IMG/VR virus record: IMGVR_UViG_3300022752_000142
Span: 1-41,489 of that record
DNA length: 41,489 bases
Reading direction: 5' to 3' (one strand)
DNA from: a virus
Positions within the stretch are counted from its first letter, which is position 1; the number at the start of each line of letters is the position of its first letter. This document shows, in pieces, positions 22,091 to 32,650 of the stretch. Below the pieces are notes generated by a model. It did not search any database. It saw only the letters and a list, made by a program, of their open reading frames with translations, and was not told the origin of the DNA. The position numbers were made by a program, and so were the translations under genes.

Positions 22091-22789
22091 ATGCCTTTGC
22101 CAAAACTTGAGACGCCGACTTATACTACAGAATTACCATCAACAGGACAAAAAATTACATTTAGGCCTTTCTTAGTAAAAGAACATAAAATTTTACTTAC
22201 ATTAACAGCAGCAGATGAAGTAGAAATAGCAAGAGTAATTACTGATTTAGTTGATGCGTGTACATTTAAAAAATTAAAAATAAATGAATTGGCCAATTTT
22301 GATATTGAATATTTGTTTATGATTTTAAGAGCCAAATCTATAGGTGAAACTATGGATTTAGTTTTAACTTGTGAAAATTGCAATGAGAAGAATGATATAA
22401 CTGTAAATCTATTACATGCTAAAGTAGATAAGAACGAAAACCATAGTAATAAAATTAAATTAAATGATGAAATAAGTATAATCTTAAAATATCCGAAATT
22501 CGAGGACGTACTTAAATTATTTCAATCTGGTACAGAAGTAGATACATTTGAATTAGTAGTAAAAAGTATAAAAACAATTTATACTAAAGATGATGTATAT
22601 GAAGCATCTGAACAAACTTACGAAGAATTAAGCGATTTCGTAAATAGTATGTCTAAAGATCAATTTGAAAAGCTTGAAGATTTCTTTTTGACTATGCCGA
22701 AACTAAAACAGATAATAGAGAAAAATTGCGATAAGTGTGGGCATCCAAATAAAGTAATATTGGAGGGTCTACAAAATTTTTTCGTCTAG
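22091..22789 (+). CDS. gp26: Baseplate hub protein/tail chaperone gp26
   Basis: 232 residues (T4 gp26 has 208). The N-terminus (KLETPTYTTELPSTGQKITF RPFLVKEHKILL) is the T4_baseplate family pattern. Two CxxC pairs, CENC near residue 95 and CDKC near 217, could bind a zinc ion. A strong ribosome binding site (AGGAG) lies 5-6 bp before the ATG. The last codons contain an A4T6C run that is a good -1 slippery site. Slipping there would join gp26 to the gp51-like frame. Position directly before the tape measure is that of lambda G/GT-type chaperones. Confidence 0.85.
   Translation: MPLPKLETPTYTTELPSTGQKITFRPFLVKEHKILLTLTAADEVEIARVITDLVDACTFKKLKINELANFDIEYLFMILRAKSIGETMDLVLTCENCNEKNDITVNLLHAKVDKNENHSNKIKLNDEISIILKYPKFEDVLKLFQSGTEVDTFELVVKSIKTIYTKDDVYEASEQTYEELSDFVNSMSKDQFEKLEDFFLTMPKLKQIIEKNCDKCGHPNKVILEGLQNFFV
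22774..22783 (+). promoter_or_regulatory. Predicted -1 ribosomal frameshift site joining gp26 to the gp51-like frame
   Basis: In the gp26 frame the last codons are CAA AAT TTT TTC GTC TAG. Two overlapping heptamers are in the right phase for simultaneous -1 slippage: A AAT TTT (22774-22780) and T TTT TTC (22777-22783). After slipping, reading continues at CGT (22783) and stays open for 63 codons to the TAA at 22972-22974. No start codon with a ribosome binding site is visible at the front of that frame. Confidence 0.65.
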
Positions 22790-22974
22790 CTCTTTCGCAG
22801 GAAAGTCTTGTTAACTATTTCAAATTAAATTTTGCATTGATGCATCATCATAAGTATTCTTTATCAGAAATAGAAAATATGCTACCCTGGGAAAGAGAAA
22901 TATATGTAACCTTATTGACTCAATATGTCAATGAGGAAAATGAAAAAATAAAATTAAGTAAAACTAAAAGCTAA
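22783..22974 (+). CDS. gp51: gp51-like tail assembly protein, read by -1 frameshift from gp26
   Basis: 63 codons in the -1 frame relative to gp26, encoding a helical peptide that includes NYFKLNFALMHHHKYSLSEI and then ENMLPWEREIYVTLLTQYV. This resembles the T-like or gp51-like tail chaperone extension found after gp26 in T4-like phages. With the slip at 22780 the fusion would be about 294 residues. The only internal ATG in frame, at 22840, lacks a ribosome binding site and would start in the middle of the conserved block. It ends 10 bp before the tape-measure ATG. Confidence 0.65.
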   Translation, partial: RLALSQESLVNYFKLNFALMHHHKYSLSEIENMLPWEREIYVTLLTQYVNEENEKIKLSKTKS

Positions 22975-22984
22975 TGGATACCAA

Positions 22985-24784
22985 ATGGCATTAGAAAAAT
23001 TAAGAGAATCCTTGAAAAAAGATAATGTAGATCCTGTCACTAAAAAAATTATAAACGAAATAAAACAAAGTAGTATTTCGTCATCTACTTTACTTAAGAA
23101 AGAACTTAATGATCTTGAAAAAGGAATAACCAACGTTAATGCTAATCTAGAAAAAATCTTTAAAGCTTTAACCAATTCCCCTTTAGTAAAAAATAATAAA
23201 CCGGGACAATCTTCGCCCGCTATGACTAATAAAGGTGAAATAGTATATGTCACTAATCCACAGGATAGAAGATTATTAAGACAAACAATAGGTAATCAAC
23301 CTTTAAATTTTAGAGATGTATTTACTTCTTTTGCTAGTAAAGATCAAAAAAATCGTTCATATCTATTTCAGTCTGGTGAACAGGCAAGAGCAAGAGAAGA
23401 TCTTAAGATCAAACTTGCCAAGAATCAAATTACTAAAAATGAATTTGATTTAGAAAACGAAAAAATAGGTACTACTGCAGGTTTGAATCCTATTAATTTT
23501 ATCAAAGATTTTGGTGAGGGATTGAAGGACATTTTTAATTTTTTCACCAATAAAAATAAATTAATGGTGGAAACAAATGGTGATTCCGATAGAACAGAAA
23601 AAACTATTACAGAAAGAAAATTAAAACTATCAGATTTAACTAATTCAGATGTAGTGGATAAAGGGATATCAATTAAATTACTGACAGAAGTAATCAAAAT
23701 AAGAAAAATTTTGGAGAAAAGAGATAGACCTACTACAACAAGAACAAGATTAAACAGACCAGAAATTATAGATATAGGTAAAGAAAATCTTCTAGAATTG
23801 CCATATAATTCTAGAAGATTAGAAAGCAATAAAAAACAAGAAGTAAAAATTACTAGATTAAGACCAGATTTTACTCAAAAAAATATACCAGGTTACACTG
23901 GTGGTCAAATGCAAGGAAATATAAAAGGTATTTATAATTCTAGAAGATTAGAAAACAATAAAAAACAAGAAGTAAAAATTACTAGATTAGGGCCAGATTT
24001 TACTCAAAAAAATATACCAGGTTACACTGGTGGTCAAATGCAAAGAAATATAAAAGATATTGTCCAGACTAAGAAAGAACCACCTGCATTACCTTTACTG
24101 GCAGGTCCTAATCAATCGGTAGTTTCTAAACCTTCTTTACCTATGGAAGTTACTAAAAAGACTGATGATATTATAGATGTTGAACCAAAAGAAGTTTCTG
24201 AAACTAATATTAATATGGGCGGCGCAGCAGGGGCAGTGGGTGCTTCAGGAGCAGCTACTGCTGCTAGTAAAGTTTCCAAATTTAAGAATTTTATTAAAGG
24301 TGCAGGAAAAGTTGCTATGACAGGTTTAAGAACTGTAGGCAAGCTTGCATTACCGGTAACTGCTGCATTGGGTGCAATGGACGCAACTGCTGGTTATATG
24401 AATGCGACTGAAAATTTAGATATACAAAACAGAGAAGCTACACTTGGAGAAAAATTATCTTCAGCGGCAGGAAGTGCTATTTCTGGCCTATCTTTCGGAC
24501 TACTAGATTCTAAAGATATTTCTAAAAAAATAAAAGAGATAACTGGTGCTGGTCCCGATATTACTCCTGCTAATTTACAGGAAAATAATTTATCATCGGC
24601 ATCACAACAAAATGAAGAACTAAAAAGATCAAGTAACGGAATAGGTAATATGGTAGTAAACAATATTACTCAAACATCTGATAATCAATCACCTATTCAA
24701 GCACCTTCAGCAACCCCTAGAGGCGGGTTACCTTCGTCATTAGAACAGTATATTAAAACTAGAGCATCATATGGTATAGCGTAA
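22985..24784 (+). CDS. gp29: Tail tape measure protein, gp29-like
   Basis: 599 residues (T4 gp29 has 590). The N-terminal half is highly charged and helical (KLRESLKKDNVDPVTKKIIN and onward), the C-terminal half has an Ala/Gly-rich hydrophobic stretch at about 410-475 (GGAAGAVGASGAATAAS, then GLRTVGKLALPVTAALGAM) as in tape measures. A 43-residue tandem repeat occupies about 274-359. It follows the gp26/gp51 chaperone genes and ends at a strong terminator, as tape measures do in many phages. T4 gp29 sets tail length and sits in the tube. Confidence 0.8.
   Translation: MALEKLRESLKKDNVDPVTKKIINEIKQSSISSSTLLKKELNDLEKGITNVNANLEKIFKALTNSPLVKNNKPGQSSPAMTNKGEIVYVTNPQDRRLLRQTIGNQPLNFRDVFTSFASKDQKNRSYLFQSGEQARAREDLKIKLAKNQITKNEFDLENEKIGTTAGLNPINFIKDFGEGLKDIFNFFTNKNKLMVETNGDSDRTEKTITERKLKLSDLTNSDVVDKGISIKLLTEVIKIRKILEKRDRPTTTRTRLNRPEIIDIGKENLLELPYNSRRLESNKKQEVKITRLRPDFTQKNIPGYTGGQMQGNIKGIYNSRRLENNKKQEVKITRLGPDFTQKNIPGYTGGQMQRNIKDIVQTKKEPPALPLLAGPNQSVVSKPSLPMEVTKKTDDIIDVEPKEVSETNINMGGAAGAVGASGAATAASKVSKFKNFIKGAGKVAMTGLRTVGKLALPVTAALGAMDATAGYMNATENLDIQNREATLGEKLSSAAGSAISGLSFGLLDSKDISKKIKEITGAGPDITPANLQENNLSSASQQNEELKRSSNGIGNMVVNNITQTSDNQSPIQAPSATPRGGLPSSLEQYIKTRASYGIA
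23804..24061 (+). repeat. Tandem duplication of 129 bp in the tape measure gene
   Basis: Two direct, adjacent 129 bp copies (23804-23932 and 23933-24061) differ at 5 positions, all A/G. Each encodes 43 residues beginning YNSRRLE and containing NIPGYTGGQMQ. The frame is kept. Confidence 0.9.
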
Positions 24785-24818: not shown

Positions 24819-25049
24819 TTACTTCTTGGCTGGTTCTGCCGCTGGTTTACCATCTTTACCAACTGGTTTAACCTTTGGCTTGTCGCCGTCTTTCTTGGCT
24901 TCATCTTTTTTAGTCTCATCCTTCTTAGGCTCTTCCTTCTTAGCTTCAGCTTTGGGAGGTTCAGCTTTTTTGGCTTCTTCCTTCTTAGCGTCAGCTGCAT
25001 ACGCAAAAGTAAAACCAAGTGCTGCTAAAAGTGCGATTAAAGTTTTCAT
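24819..25049 (-). CDS. Small secreted or periplasmic Lys/Glu/Pro-rich protein
   Basis: 76 residues. Residues 1-18 are a clear Sec signal peptide (MKTLIALLAALGFTFAYAAD) with a signal peptidase I site after AYA. The mature part is nearly all K, E, A, P and D in repeating AKKEE, PKAEA and KKDE units, with no Cys or aromatic residue. A good ribosome binding site (AAGGAA) lies upstream of the ATG. The gene follows gp32 after a 92 bp gap. Similar K/E/A-rich small exported proteins are common in betaproteobacteria. Function unknown; the low-complexity composition makes family assignment unsafe. Confidence 0.7.
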   Translation of the reverse strand: MKTLIALLAALGFTFAYAADAKKEEAKKAEPPKAEAKKEEPKKDETKKDEAKKDGDKPKVKPVGKDGKPAAEPAKK

Positions 25050-30627: not shown

Positions 30628-31260
30628 TTATCCTTGTAATACCTCAATGGCATGATTATAATGTTTAACACGATCTTCTAACCCAATGAACCCACCATTG
30701 ATACGTTTAGTCATCATTCTTAAATCTTGAGCATCAGCTAATTCATTTAATTTATTGGCAGTCCAGAACCAGCATGCAGAATGAAGCGCATAATATGGTT
30801 GGGTCAATACATCAGGATTTTGTAATAATGTATCATCCTCAAACATAGCCATACTACATCTTTGATAATTAGATTTACCGGTAAGTTGAATCAATCCCCT
30901 GCCTCTATATCTATAGCCTTCGCCTGATGCTTCAGACCCATTACCCATTCTATTTGCATAAACACGGTTAGCAATTTTTTCAGGTTGTCTGTGGTATTGT
31001 TGTGCAATCTCAGCAGATGGGAAATATTTTGGGAAAACTTTTCTTAAACCATCAGCAGAATAATTTAAATTCTCCGATAAGATAGTGAATCCGCCAGATT
31101 CATGAGCACATTGCGCTATAAATGCAGCTGTTCTAGCTATATCATTTATCTCATACTGAGGCAACACATCAACTAATGATTCATACCATTCACTTAAATT
31201 TTTGACACGAGGTATAAGATGTTGTAGTTGTTCCTCAGTAAAATCGAAATCAAATGACAT
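30628..31260 (-). CDS. Endolysin, GH19-type (chitinase-like muramidase)
   Basis: 210 residues, covering one GH19 domain with no signal peptide. Candidate catalytic Glu are E54 (AAFIAQCAHESGGF) and a Glu in NGSEASGEGYRYRGRG around 110-114, followed by GLIQLTGKSNY, the conserved GRGxIQLTG block. GH19 endolysins cut murein beta-1,4 bonds and need a holin to reach the wall. The ATG overlaps the iscU stop (ATGTCATTTGA), so it is coupled to the Fe-S genes. Confidence 0.9.
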   Translation of the reverse strand: MSFDFDFTEEQLQHLIPRVKNLSEWYESLVDVLPQYEINDIARTAAFIAQCAHESGGFTILSENLNYSADGLRKVFPKYFPSAEIAQQYHRQPEKIANRVYANRMGNGSEASGEGYRYRGRGLIQLTGKSNYQRCSMAMFEDDTLLQNPDVLTQPYYALHSACWFWTANKLNELADAQDLRMMTKRINGGFIGLEDRVKHYNHAIEVLQG

Positions 31261-31636
31261 TGTTTTTCTCCTTAAAATCTTTTATAGCAGCCTTGATCGC
31301 ATCCTCTGCCAATATGGAGCAGTGTATTTTAACGGGTGGTAACGCAAGTTCTTCTGCAATTTGAGTATTGCGAATAGTGCCGGCTTCGTCGAGACTCTTA
31401 CCCTTGACCCATTCCGTAACGAGCGAACTAGACGCAATCGCTGAACCACATCCATATGTTTTAAATTTAGCATCCGTAATGATTCCATTTTCATCTACCT
31501 GTATTTGTAGTTTCATTACATCACCACACGCTGGTGCGCCAACCATGCCTGTACCTATTCTTTTCACTTCTTTAGCAAAAGAGCCAACATTACGAGGATT
31601 TTCGTAGTGATCTAGTACTTGAGATGAGTAAGCCAT
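31250..31636 (-). CDS. iscU: Iron-sulfur cluster scaffold IscU
   Basis: 128 residues from the ATG at 31636, the same length as E. coli IscU; a longer upstream frame exists but its extra residues do not belong to the family. All functional residues are present: C37, D39 (APACGDVM), C63 (KTYGCGSAIASSS), H105 and C106, and the HscA-binding LPPVK motif before them. IscU receives sulfur from IscS and iron to build 2Fe-2S clusters and passes them on with HscA/HscB. The sequence looks like beta/gamma-proteobacterial IscU, suggesting capture from a host. IscS, HscA and Fdx are not in the window, so host partners would be used. It starts 4 bp after the A-type carrier stop. Confidence 0.95.
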   Translation of the reverse strand: MAYSSQVLDHYENPRNVGSFAKEVKRIGTGMVGAPACGDVMKLQIQVDENGIITDAKFKTYGCGSAIASSSLVTEWVKGKSLDEAGTIRNTQIAEELALPPVKIHCSILAEDAIKAAIKDFKEKNNVI

Positions 31637-31640
31637 TTTT

Positions 31641-31961
31641 TTATGCAGCGAAGGATGAGCCACAACCACAAGTAGTTGTAGCATTAGGATTTTTGATTAC
31701 AAACTGTGCAGATGCTATATCTTTTTTATAATCTATTTCGGCTCCGTCCAGATAAGACATGGACATAGCATCGACCAATACTTTTATCCCGTCTTTTTCT
31801 AATACAAAATCATCGTCGCCTTGTCTTTCATCAAATGTAAAACCATATTGAAATCCCGAACAACCTCCGCCCTGAATAAAAACTCTTAAAGGAGATGTTT
31901 CGTTTTCTTCTAATTGAACTTGTCTAATCTGATTGAAAGCTTTATCTGTTACAGTTAACAT
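31641..31961 (-). CDS. erpA: A-type Fe-S carrier protein (ErpA/IscA family)
   Basis: 106 residues. Cluster ligands are C34 ([11 protein letters not shown]), C98 and C100 (TTCGCGSSF). The [16 protein letters not shown] segment and the CGCGSSF end favour ErpA over IscA, but the family members are hard to separate without a tree. It transfers Fe-S clusters from IscU to apo-enzymes. The ATG overlaps the Bax-inhibitor stop (TAATG), and IscU follows 4 bp later, so the pair is co-translated. Confidence 0.93.
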
Positions 31962-32650
31962 TACTCTCTTTTCTCCCCAAATAGATTAAGAAGACTTAAA
32001 AAGATATTAATAAAATTTAGATATAAACTAAGTGCCCCAATTACTTCTACGTTACGACTATCACCAAACATAATCATTTCACGTATCTTTTGGGTGTCGT
32101 AAGCAGTTAATCCCAAAAAGATAATGATAGCAAGACTGCTAATAACCATGCTGAATACACTACTACCAATGAAAATGTTGACAATACTGGCAAGAATAAT
32201 AGCGATAAGACCAACAAACATAAACTTTCCGAGACTATCCAAGCTCTTTTTTGTAAAGTATCCATAAAAACTCATTACTCCAAATAAAATTGCAGCACTC
32301 ATAAATGCTGTAACAATTGATCCTAGTTTATATACTACAAATATAGTAGCGAAACTAAGTCCCATAATCATAGAAAATCCAACCAACATTAACTGAGCCA
32401 ATTCTCTGGATGGATTAGAATTCAAGGCAAAACTAAATCCCATAACTGCTGCTAAGGGCAAAAAGATAGTTACCCATTTCATCCAACCAGTAAAAAAGAA
32501 TGCCATTAGCGCAGGAACACTGCTTATGGCAAGCGCTGTAAGCATACTTACCAAAGTAGCCAGTGCCATGTGTTTATAAACACCAGCCATTTTTGAATTT
32601 ATTTCGCTAGCTCCCAGATACCCAGGAGCCATATAAGTAGTTGTACTCAT
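31961..32650 (-). CDS. Bax inhibitor-1/YccA family membrane protein
   Basis: 229 residues with seven hydrophobic segments between about 27 and 222 and the family ending [20 protein letters not shown] followed by [20 protein letters not shown]. The family (TMBIM, bacterial YccA/YbhL) forms pH-sensitive calcium leak or protease-modulating membrane proteins; YccA of E. coli restrains FtsH. In a phage it might keep the membrane or FtsH-controlled proteins stable until lysis; that is inference. It overlaps the preceding small gene by TAATG. Confidence 0.9.

Follow-up and report, generated by a model that had tools for sequence, protein, structure and literature searches.

In all likelihood, the gp26-like gene of this uncultured phage encodes a tail assembly chaperone, and a -1 frameshift on the heptamer T_TTT_TTC near its end would yield a long form of 294 residues beside the short form. 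The window, by which we mean the whole stretch of DNA analyzed here, is a 41,489-base record of an uncultured virus with a T4-like gene content. A frameshift at the end of gp26 had been proposed in a preliminary description of the window, and it is now supported by a slip site present at 240/240 junctions in relatives, by a pN/pS of 0.40 in the -1 frame and by an open -1 frame in 113/113 clusters. The features concerned are as follows.

22091–22789, + strand: gp26-like gene, short tail assembly chaperone form (TAC-N), 232 aa (PF12322, phrog_150, AlphaFold2)
22762–22767, + strand: Shine-Dalgarno-like GGAGGG, proposed frameshift stimulator (duplex energy, codon bias, spacing)
22774–22780, + strand: A_AAT_TTT heptamer in -1 phase, unconserved and probably incidental (45/203 distinct junctions)
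22777–22783, + strand: T_TTT_TTC slippery heptamer, conserved -1 slip site (240/240 intact relative junctions)
22783–22974, + strand: gp51 domain (TAC-C) in the -1 frame, 63 codons plus TAA (phrog_634; open in 113/113 clusters; pN/pS)
22985–24784, + strand: 599-aa protein, putative tape measure protein (position, length, hydrophobic stretch)

The slip site and proposed stimulatory elements

Read directly from the sequence, gp26 ends in the codons GGT CTA CAA AAT TTT TTC GTC TAG, and its stop codon occupies 22787–22789. The two overlapping -1 heptamers that had been described in phase at this point are both there, A_AAT_TTT at 22774–22780 and T_TTT_TTC at 22777–22783. TTTTTTC is found 28 times in this AT-rich window against an expectation of 24.6, so that the heptamer by itself occurs at chance frequency, and elsewhere in the window other long -1 frames are open beyond a stop. 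For these reasons the case for frameshifting rests on conservation.

Scans of viral contigs and named phages yielded 240 junctions at which both genes, gp26 and gp51, are intact; 203 of these are distinct, and clustering at 80% identity leaves 113 clusters. At all 240 intact junctions gp51 lies in the -1 frame relative to gp26, and at all 240 an in-phase TTTTTT(C/T/G) stands 5' of the gp26 stop, mostly one codon away from it. The heptamer T_TTT_TT(C/T/G), which has the X_XXY_YYZ form of programmed -1 frameshift sites, is thus conserved throughout. An identical junction with the slip site is seen in one further contig (L252), which is not among the 240 and in which gp26 is broken elsewhere. Codon 229, which precedes the TTT, is AAT, AGT, TCT, GAT, CAT or GCT, so that its third base is invariably T despite a variable amino acid (N, S, D, H or A). 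Codon 230 is TTT, never TTC, in 113/113 clusters, compared with 959 of 1,277 (75%) for the other phenylalanines of gp26. The log10 probability for the invariant T positions is -34.8, a figure that treats the clusters as independent and so overstates the case. The preliminary description had suggested checking relatives for conservation of the whole A4T6C run; the T_TTT_TTC part of it is kept, as T_TTT_TT(C/T/G) at 240/240 junctions, but the A4 part is not. Given that A_AAT_TTT is present at only 45 of the 203 distinct junctions, the working slip site would be T_TTT_TTC at 22777–22783.

Two explanations that do not involve the ribosome can be weighed at this point. Homopolymer sequencing errors are common, and an error in sequencing or assembly could have split a continuous gp26-gp51 gene in one genome. 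This reading is refuted by conservation, as a like arrangement recurs across 240 contigs and is also seen in finished genomes, those of KVP40 and S-SM1 among them, and we assign it a negligible probability. Transcriptional slippage on the homopolymer T run, which would produce mRNAs one base longer or shorter, is also very improbable. Bacterial polymerase slippage usually needs longer T runs than those here, where the run is exactly 6 in 92 of the 113 clusters and at most 8, and the phase of the run relative to the codons, which matters to ribosomes alone, is fixed.

A candidate stimulator of ribosomal frameshifting lies immediately upstream. GGAGG (22762–22766) sits 10 nt 5' of the slip site in the window, and Shine-Dalgarno spacings of 9–14 nt are known to stimulate -1 frameshifting (PMC5009743). 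Complementarity to the 16S rRNA 3' end reaches its maximum just upstream of the slip site, where at that spacing the duplex energy beats a synonymous-codon null across the 113 clusters with |z| of about 8, an upper estimate, as are all the Shine-Dalgarno z values, because the clusters are related. Glutamate 225 is encoded by GAG in 50/80 cases, compared with 25% elsewhere, and GAG GGN is over-used here relative to other E-G dipeptides (p = 1.6e-4). As judged from these codon patterns, the Shine-Dalgarno-like site is kept by synonymous codon choice, and a 5' Shine-Dalgarno stimulator, a common but not obligatory companion of -1 frameshifting, is thus represented here by both synonymous constraint and a 10-nt spacing.

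A 3' stem-loop or pseudoknot is likewise a common, non-obligatory stimulator of programmed -1 frameshifting. Downstream of the slip site, an Rfam search for RNA elements returned no conserved element, alifold applied to the relatives gave no conserved stem or pseudoknot, and the paired positions in pairing profiles were little different from the null. Immediately 3' of the slip, the mean folding energy is a little lower than the null (z about -1.3), with a conserved stem absent.

The -1 frame and the gp51 domain

Past the slip site the -1 frame reads RLALSQESLVNYFKLNFALMHHHKYSLSEIENMLPWEREIYVTLLTQYVNEENEKIKLSKTKS and is open until TAA at 22972–22974, which gives a predicted fusion of 231 + 63 = 294 residues. 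From the upstream stop to the conserved domain, the -1 frame of the window contains no ATG, GTG or TTG, and its first ATG is the 20th codon past the slip, within the conserved domain. The earlier claim of an open 63-codon frame lacking a usable start is therefore confirmed for the window. Its extension to relatives holds in part: the -1 frame has no ATG until about 10 codons past the slip in 77 of 113 clusters, but some relatives have an ATG that overlaps the gp26 stop. Over 50 codons, stops are absent from the -1 frame in 113/113 clusters, whereas every cluster has stops in the 0 and +1 frames. In the -1 frame, pN/pS is 0.40 from the slip site up to the first conserved ATG, and beyond that ATG it is 0.26. 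The other frames give 0.84 or higher, and 1.1–1.3 when set against the 0.40 segment. The -1 frame thus codes for protein and is selected right from the slip site, as in programmed -1 frameshifting.

These observations bear on the alternative that ribosomes reinitiate past the gp26 stop, at an internal ATG or a rare start, and make gp51 as a short protein of its own. Many relatives have gp51 annotated as a separate gene in databases, and the ATG that overlaps the gp26 stop in KVP40, Stenotrophomonas phage Marzo and rhizobial phages would suit such an arrangement. In the window and most relatives, however, no ATG precedes the 20th codon, which is inside the conserved domain, and purifying selection acts on the -1 frame in the segment 5' of the first ATG. 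Furthermore, the Shine-Dalgarno-like site is positioned for the slip site and not for any gp51 start, and reinitiation leaves the invariant phase of the T6 run unexplained. Because the -1 frame is stop-free, has a pN/pS of 0.40 before the first conserved ATG and contains no ATG until about 10 codons past the slip in 77/113 clusters, a separate gp51 start in this clade is unlikely, and we consider independent expression of gp51 quite improbable. We propose instead that the gp51 domain is very probably expressed only as the C-terminus of the 294-aa gp26-gp51 fusion (TAC-NC).

The gp51 domain matches phrog_634, annotated as "baseplate hub assembly catalyst", with an E value of 7.3e-27, and it is predicted to form three helices. 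A structure search with the gp51 model returned matches to generic helical folds only, with Z below 5. A Pfam match to Stealth_CR2 (E 0.004) was far below the cut-off and was taken as chance.

Identity of gp26 and the downstream gene

The family assignment of gp26 is firm (Pfam T4_baseplate PF12322, E 8.5e-60; phrog_150, E 1.1e-66), and the phrog_634 match places the gp51 domain in the corresponding T4 family. The phrog_150 profile reaches into the gp51 domain, an indication that fused proteins belong to this family. AlphaFold2 models gp26 with confidence (pLDDT 89.5). For residues 1–84 of the model, the best PDB match is 2ob9, the HK97 tail assembly chaperone (Z 7.1, rmsd 4.2, 83 aligned); YqbN 3klu (Z 6.7) and a PICI-like ORF19 (5.0) come next, and the other matches listed score 4.4 or less. 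The resemblance to HK97 is moderate, at a Z below 8, and comes from a second structure aligner; a Foldseek search of the gp26 model against the PDB gave nothing significant, and no PDB relatives of gp26 or gp51 turned up by sequence. A TAC-N fold is thus indicated at a moderate level for the predicted N-domain of gp26. On the basis of this HK97-like N-domain, and of T4 gp51 being a gp26 paralogue plus a C-domain, we interpret gp26 as TAC-N and the 294-residue fusion as TAC-NC, which supports the earlier suggestion that gp26 and gp51 are tail assembly chaperones. Two products, of 232 and 294 aa, are predicted from the gp26 gene, and at the level of sequence they would have a common N-terminus.

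We envisage that most ribosomes would stop at the TAG at 22787 and release the 232-aa short form. A minority would be paused or held by the Shine-Dalgarno-like GGAGG 10 nt upstream and would move one base back on T_TTT_TTC (22777–22783), where two Phe tRNAs could re-pair on TTT TTT. The slipped ribosomes would then read the helical gp51 domain in the -1 frame, reach the TAA at 22972 and release the 294-aa long form. If lambda gpG/gpGT is a guide, the putative tape measure protein encoded at 22985–24784 would be coated by many copies of the short form and few of the long one, and the gp51 domain may recruit parts of the tail tube or hub.

The gene directly 3' of gp51 encodes a protein of 599 aa, a length near that of T4 gp29 (590 aa), and it shows no match to the T4 gp29 family or to tape measure families. 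Its position, its length and a hydrophobic stretch suggest that it is the tape measure protein. Within this gene, positions 23804–24061 comprise two tandem 129-bp units of 43 codons that are in frame and match at 96%; such tandem duplications could change tail length. Two other loci in the window, both on the - strand, are recorded here for their own sake. A small predicted secreted protein without a Pfam match is encoded at 24819–25049; its N-terminus is signal-like, and repeats rich in Lys, Glu and Ala come after it. Three consecutive host-like genes at 31250–32650 encode a NifU_N/IscU-type scaffold, an Fe-S_biosyn (IscA-type) protein and a Bax1-I family membrane protein.

It is also conceivable that the frameshift is real and that its products serve baseplate hub assembly and not the tape measure protein. 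In T4, gp26 is by tradition classed as a protein of the baseplate hub or as a hub chaperone, which counts against the tail assembly chaperone reading, and gp26 and gp51 are termed hub assembly factors in the T4 literature (PMC3004832). We find this function rather unlikely, given the location of gp26 and gp51 just upstream of the putative tape measure gene and the resemblance of the gp26 N-domain to the HK97 chaperone. The two readings overlap, since the T4 hub also contains the tape measure protein gp29.

Relation to known systems and distribution in T4-like phages

Several characterized systems resemble the tail assembly chaperone arrangement that we propose for the window. Lambda gpG/gpGT likewise combines a short form with a -1 frameshifted long form just upstream of the tape measure gene; it uses another slip sequence, and its product ratio and binding have been measured. 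P2, which has a contractile tail, is closer in slip class: its gene E is annotated with a -1 frameshift giving gpE/gpE+E', and T_TTT_TTG stands at the corresponding place just upstream of the tape measure gene. Comparison of the gp51 domain with the P2 E' extension by hhalign detected no sequence similarity. Escherichia coli dnaX shares an internal Shine-Dalgarno stimulator in the 9–14 nt range (PMC5009743) but differs in having an A_AAA_AAG site and a defined 3' stem-loop, where the window is without a conserved stem.

In T4 itself, gp26 and gp51 are encoded by two separate, neighboring and divergently transcribed genes, with no slip site. Residues 7–185 of T4 gp51 match gp26 (hhalign 95%, E 3e-8), the C-terminus of T4 gp51 matches the -1 frame domain of the window, and T4 gp51 fits the gp26-family profile phrog_150 over its whole length. 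T4 gene 51 (L085, 4480–5229) is therefore a full-length gp26 paralogue plus the gp51 C-domain, that is, the long form as a gene of its own. The preliminary description had equated the -1 frame product with gp51; the equivalence extends to the C-domain of T4 gp51, but T4 gp51 as a whole joins this piece to a gp26 paralogue.

Beyond the window, Kyanoviridae (S-SM1, ME01, Mosig, Melnitz-2) carry the slip site, as do KVP40, Ceceduovirus P19, Sinorhizobium phage phiM7, Stenotrophomonas phages DLP6 and Marzo, Xanthomonas phage X1 and rhizobial Pootjesviridae. In KVP40 (L083), Marzo (L259), RHph_I9 and Atu_ph04 (loci including L093 and L089), the site is accompanied by an ATG overlapping the gp26 stop (TAATG or TGATG), so that both the fusion and a free gp51 could arise. 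The T_TTT_TTN slip site was not found at the gp26 end in the Ackermannviridae examined and their relatives (L094, L257, L258, L092, L261), in which a gp51-like domain comes next, in the -1 frame. The gp26 end reads TAATG in Dickeya phage Ds9CZ and Vibrio K397/144E46.1, and TAATT in Salmonella GG32 and Klebsiella Croc_ER14; these two lack the ATG, and their gp51 annotation begins later or is missing. A gp51 with its own ATG and ribosome binding site and no slippery run, which had been named as evidence against frameshifting, appears only in distant lineages, namely the T4 type and some Ackermannviridae with TAATG.

The accessible text of a 2016 review describes G-T frameshifting as widely conserved "except T4". 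More recently, poly-T -1 signals have been noted in the TAC-N genes of T4-like phages, as relayed in the accessible part of one citing paper (PMC12846349), and a short gene with a longer fused gene in some T4-like phages, as relayed in that of another (PMC10274946); a third likewise cites the 2022 idea of tail chaperone frameshifting in these phages (PMC10885494). The principle was thus already known, as T4-like tail assembly chaperones were published in 2022. The lambda-style strategy suggested earlier for this T4-like phage is accordingly supported in the window and is, as far as these excerpts convey, not new. Vladimirov, Gautam and Davidson (Virology 2022, 566:9-15) reportedly identified the tail assembly chaperone genes of T4-like phages. 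From what is accessible of that work, the idea is identical and the genes are very probably the same; our window differs in coming from an uncultured phage, and the internal Shine-Dalgarno constraint was measured in the present analysis. The accessible text mentions neither the internal Shine-Dalgarno constraint nor the HK97-like fold, and both may be in Vladimirov et al. 2022.

The present analysis pinpoints a precise, testable slip site and stimulator, and it implies that the gp51 gene as annotated in T4-like relatives is the tail of a frameshift fusion, often with a false start. The analysis also favors the view in which T4 gp26 and gp51, long a puzzle, correspond to the lambda G/GT chaperones. 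More broadly, we hypothesize, giving the scheme an even chance of being correct, that in Kyanoviridae-like and several other T4-like phages a dnaX-like internal Shine-Dalgarno element acts on T_TTT_TTC with no fixed RNA structure and sets the short-to-long ratio of gp26, that gene duplication took the place of the frameshift in the T4 lineage, and that some Ackermannviridae use a stop-start overlap. If this is true, a single chaperone pair would have three ways to its two forms: frameshifting, gene duplication and stop-start overlap.
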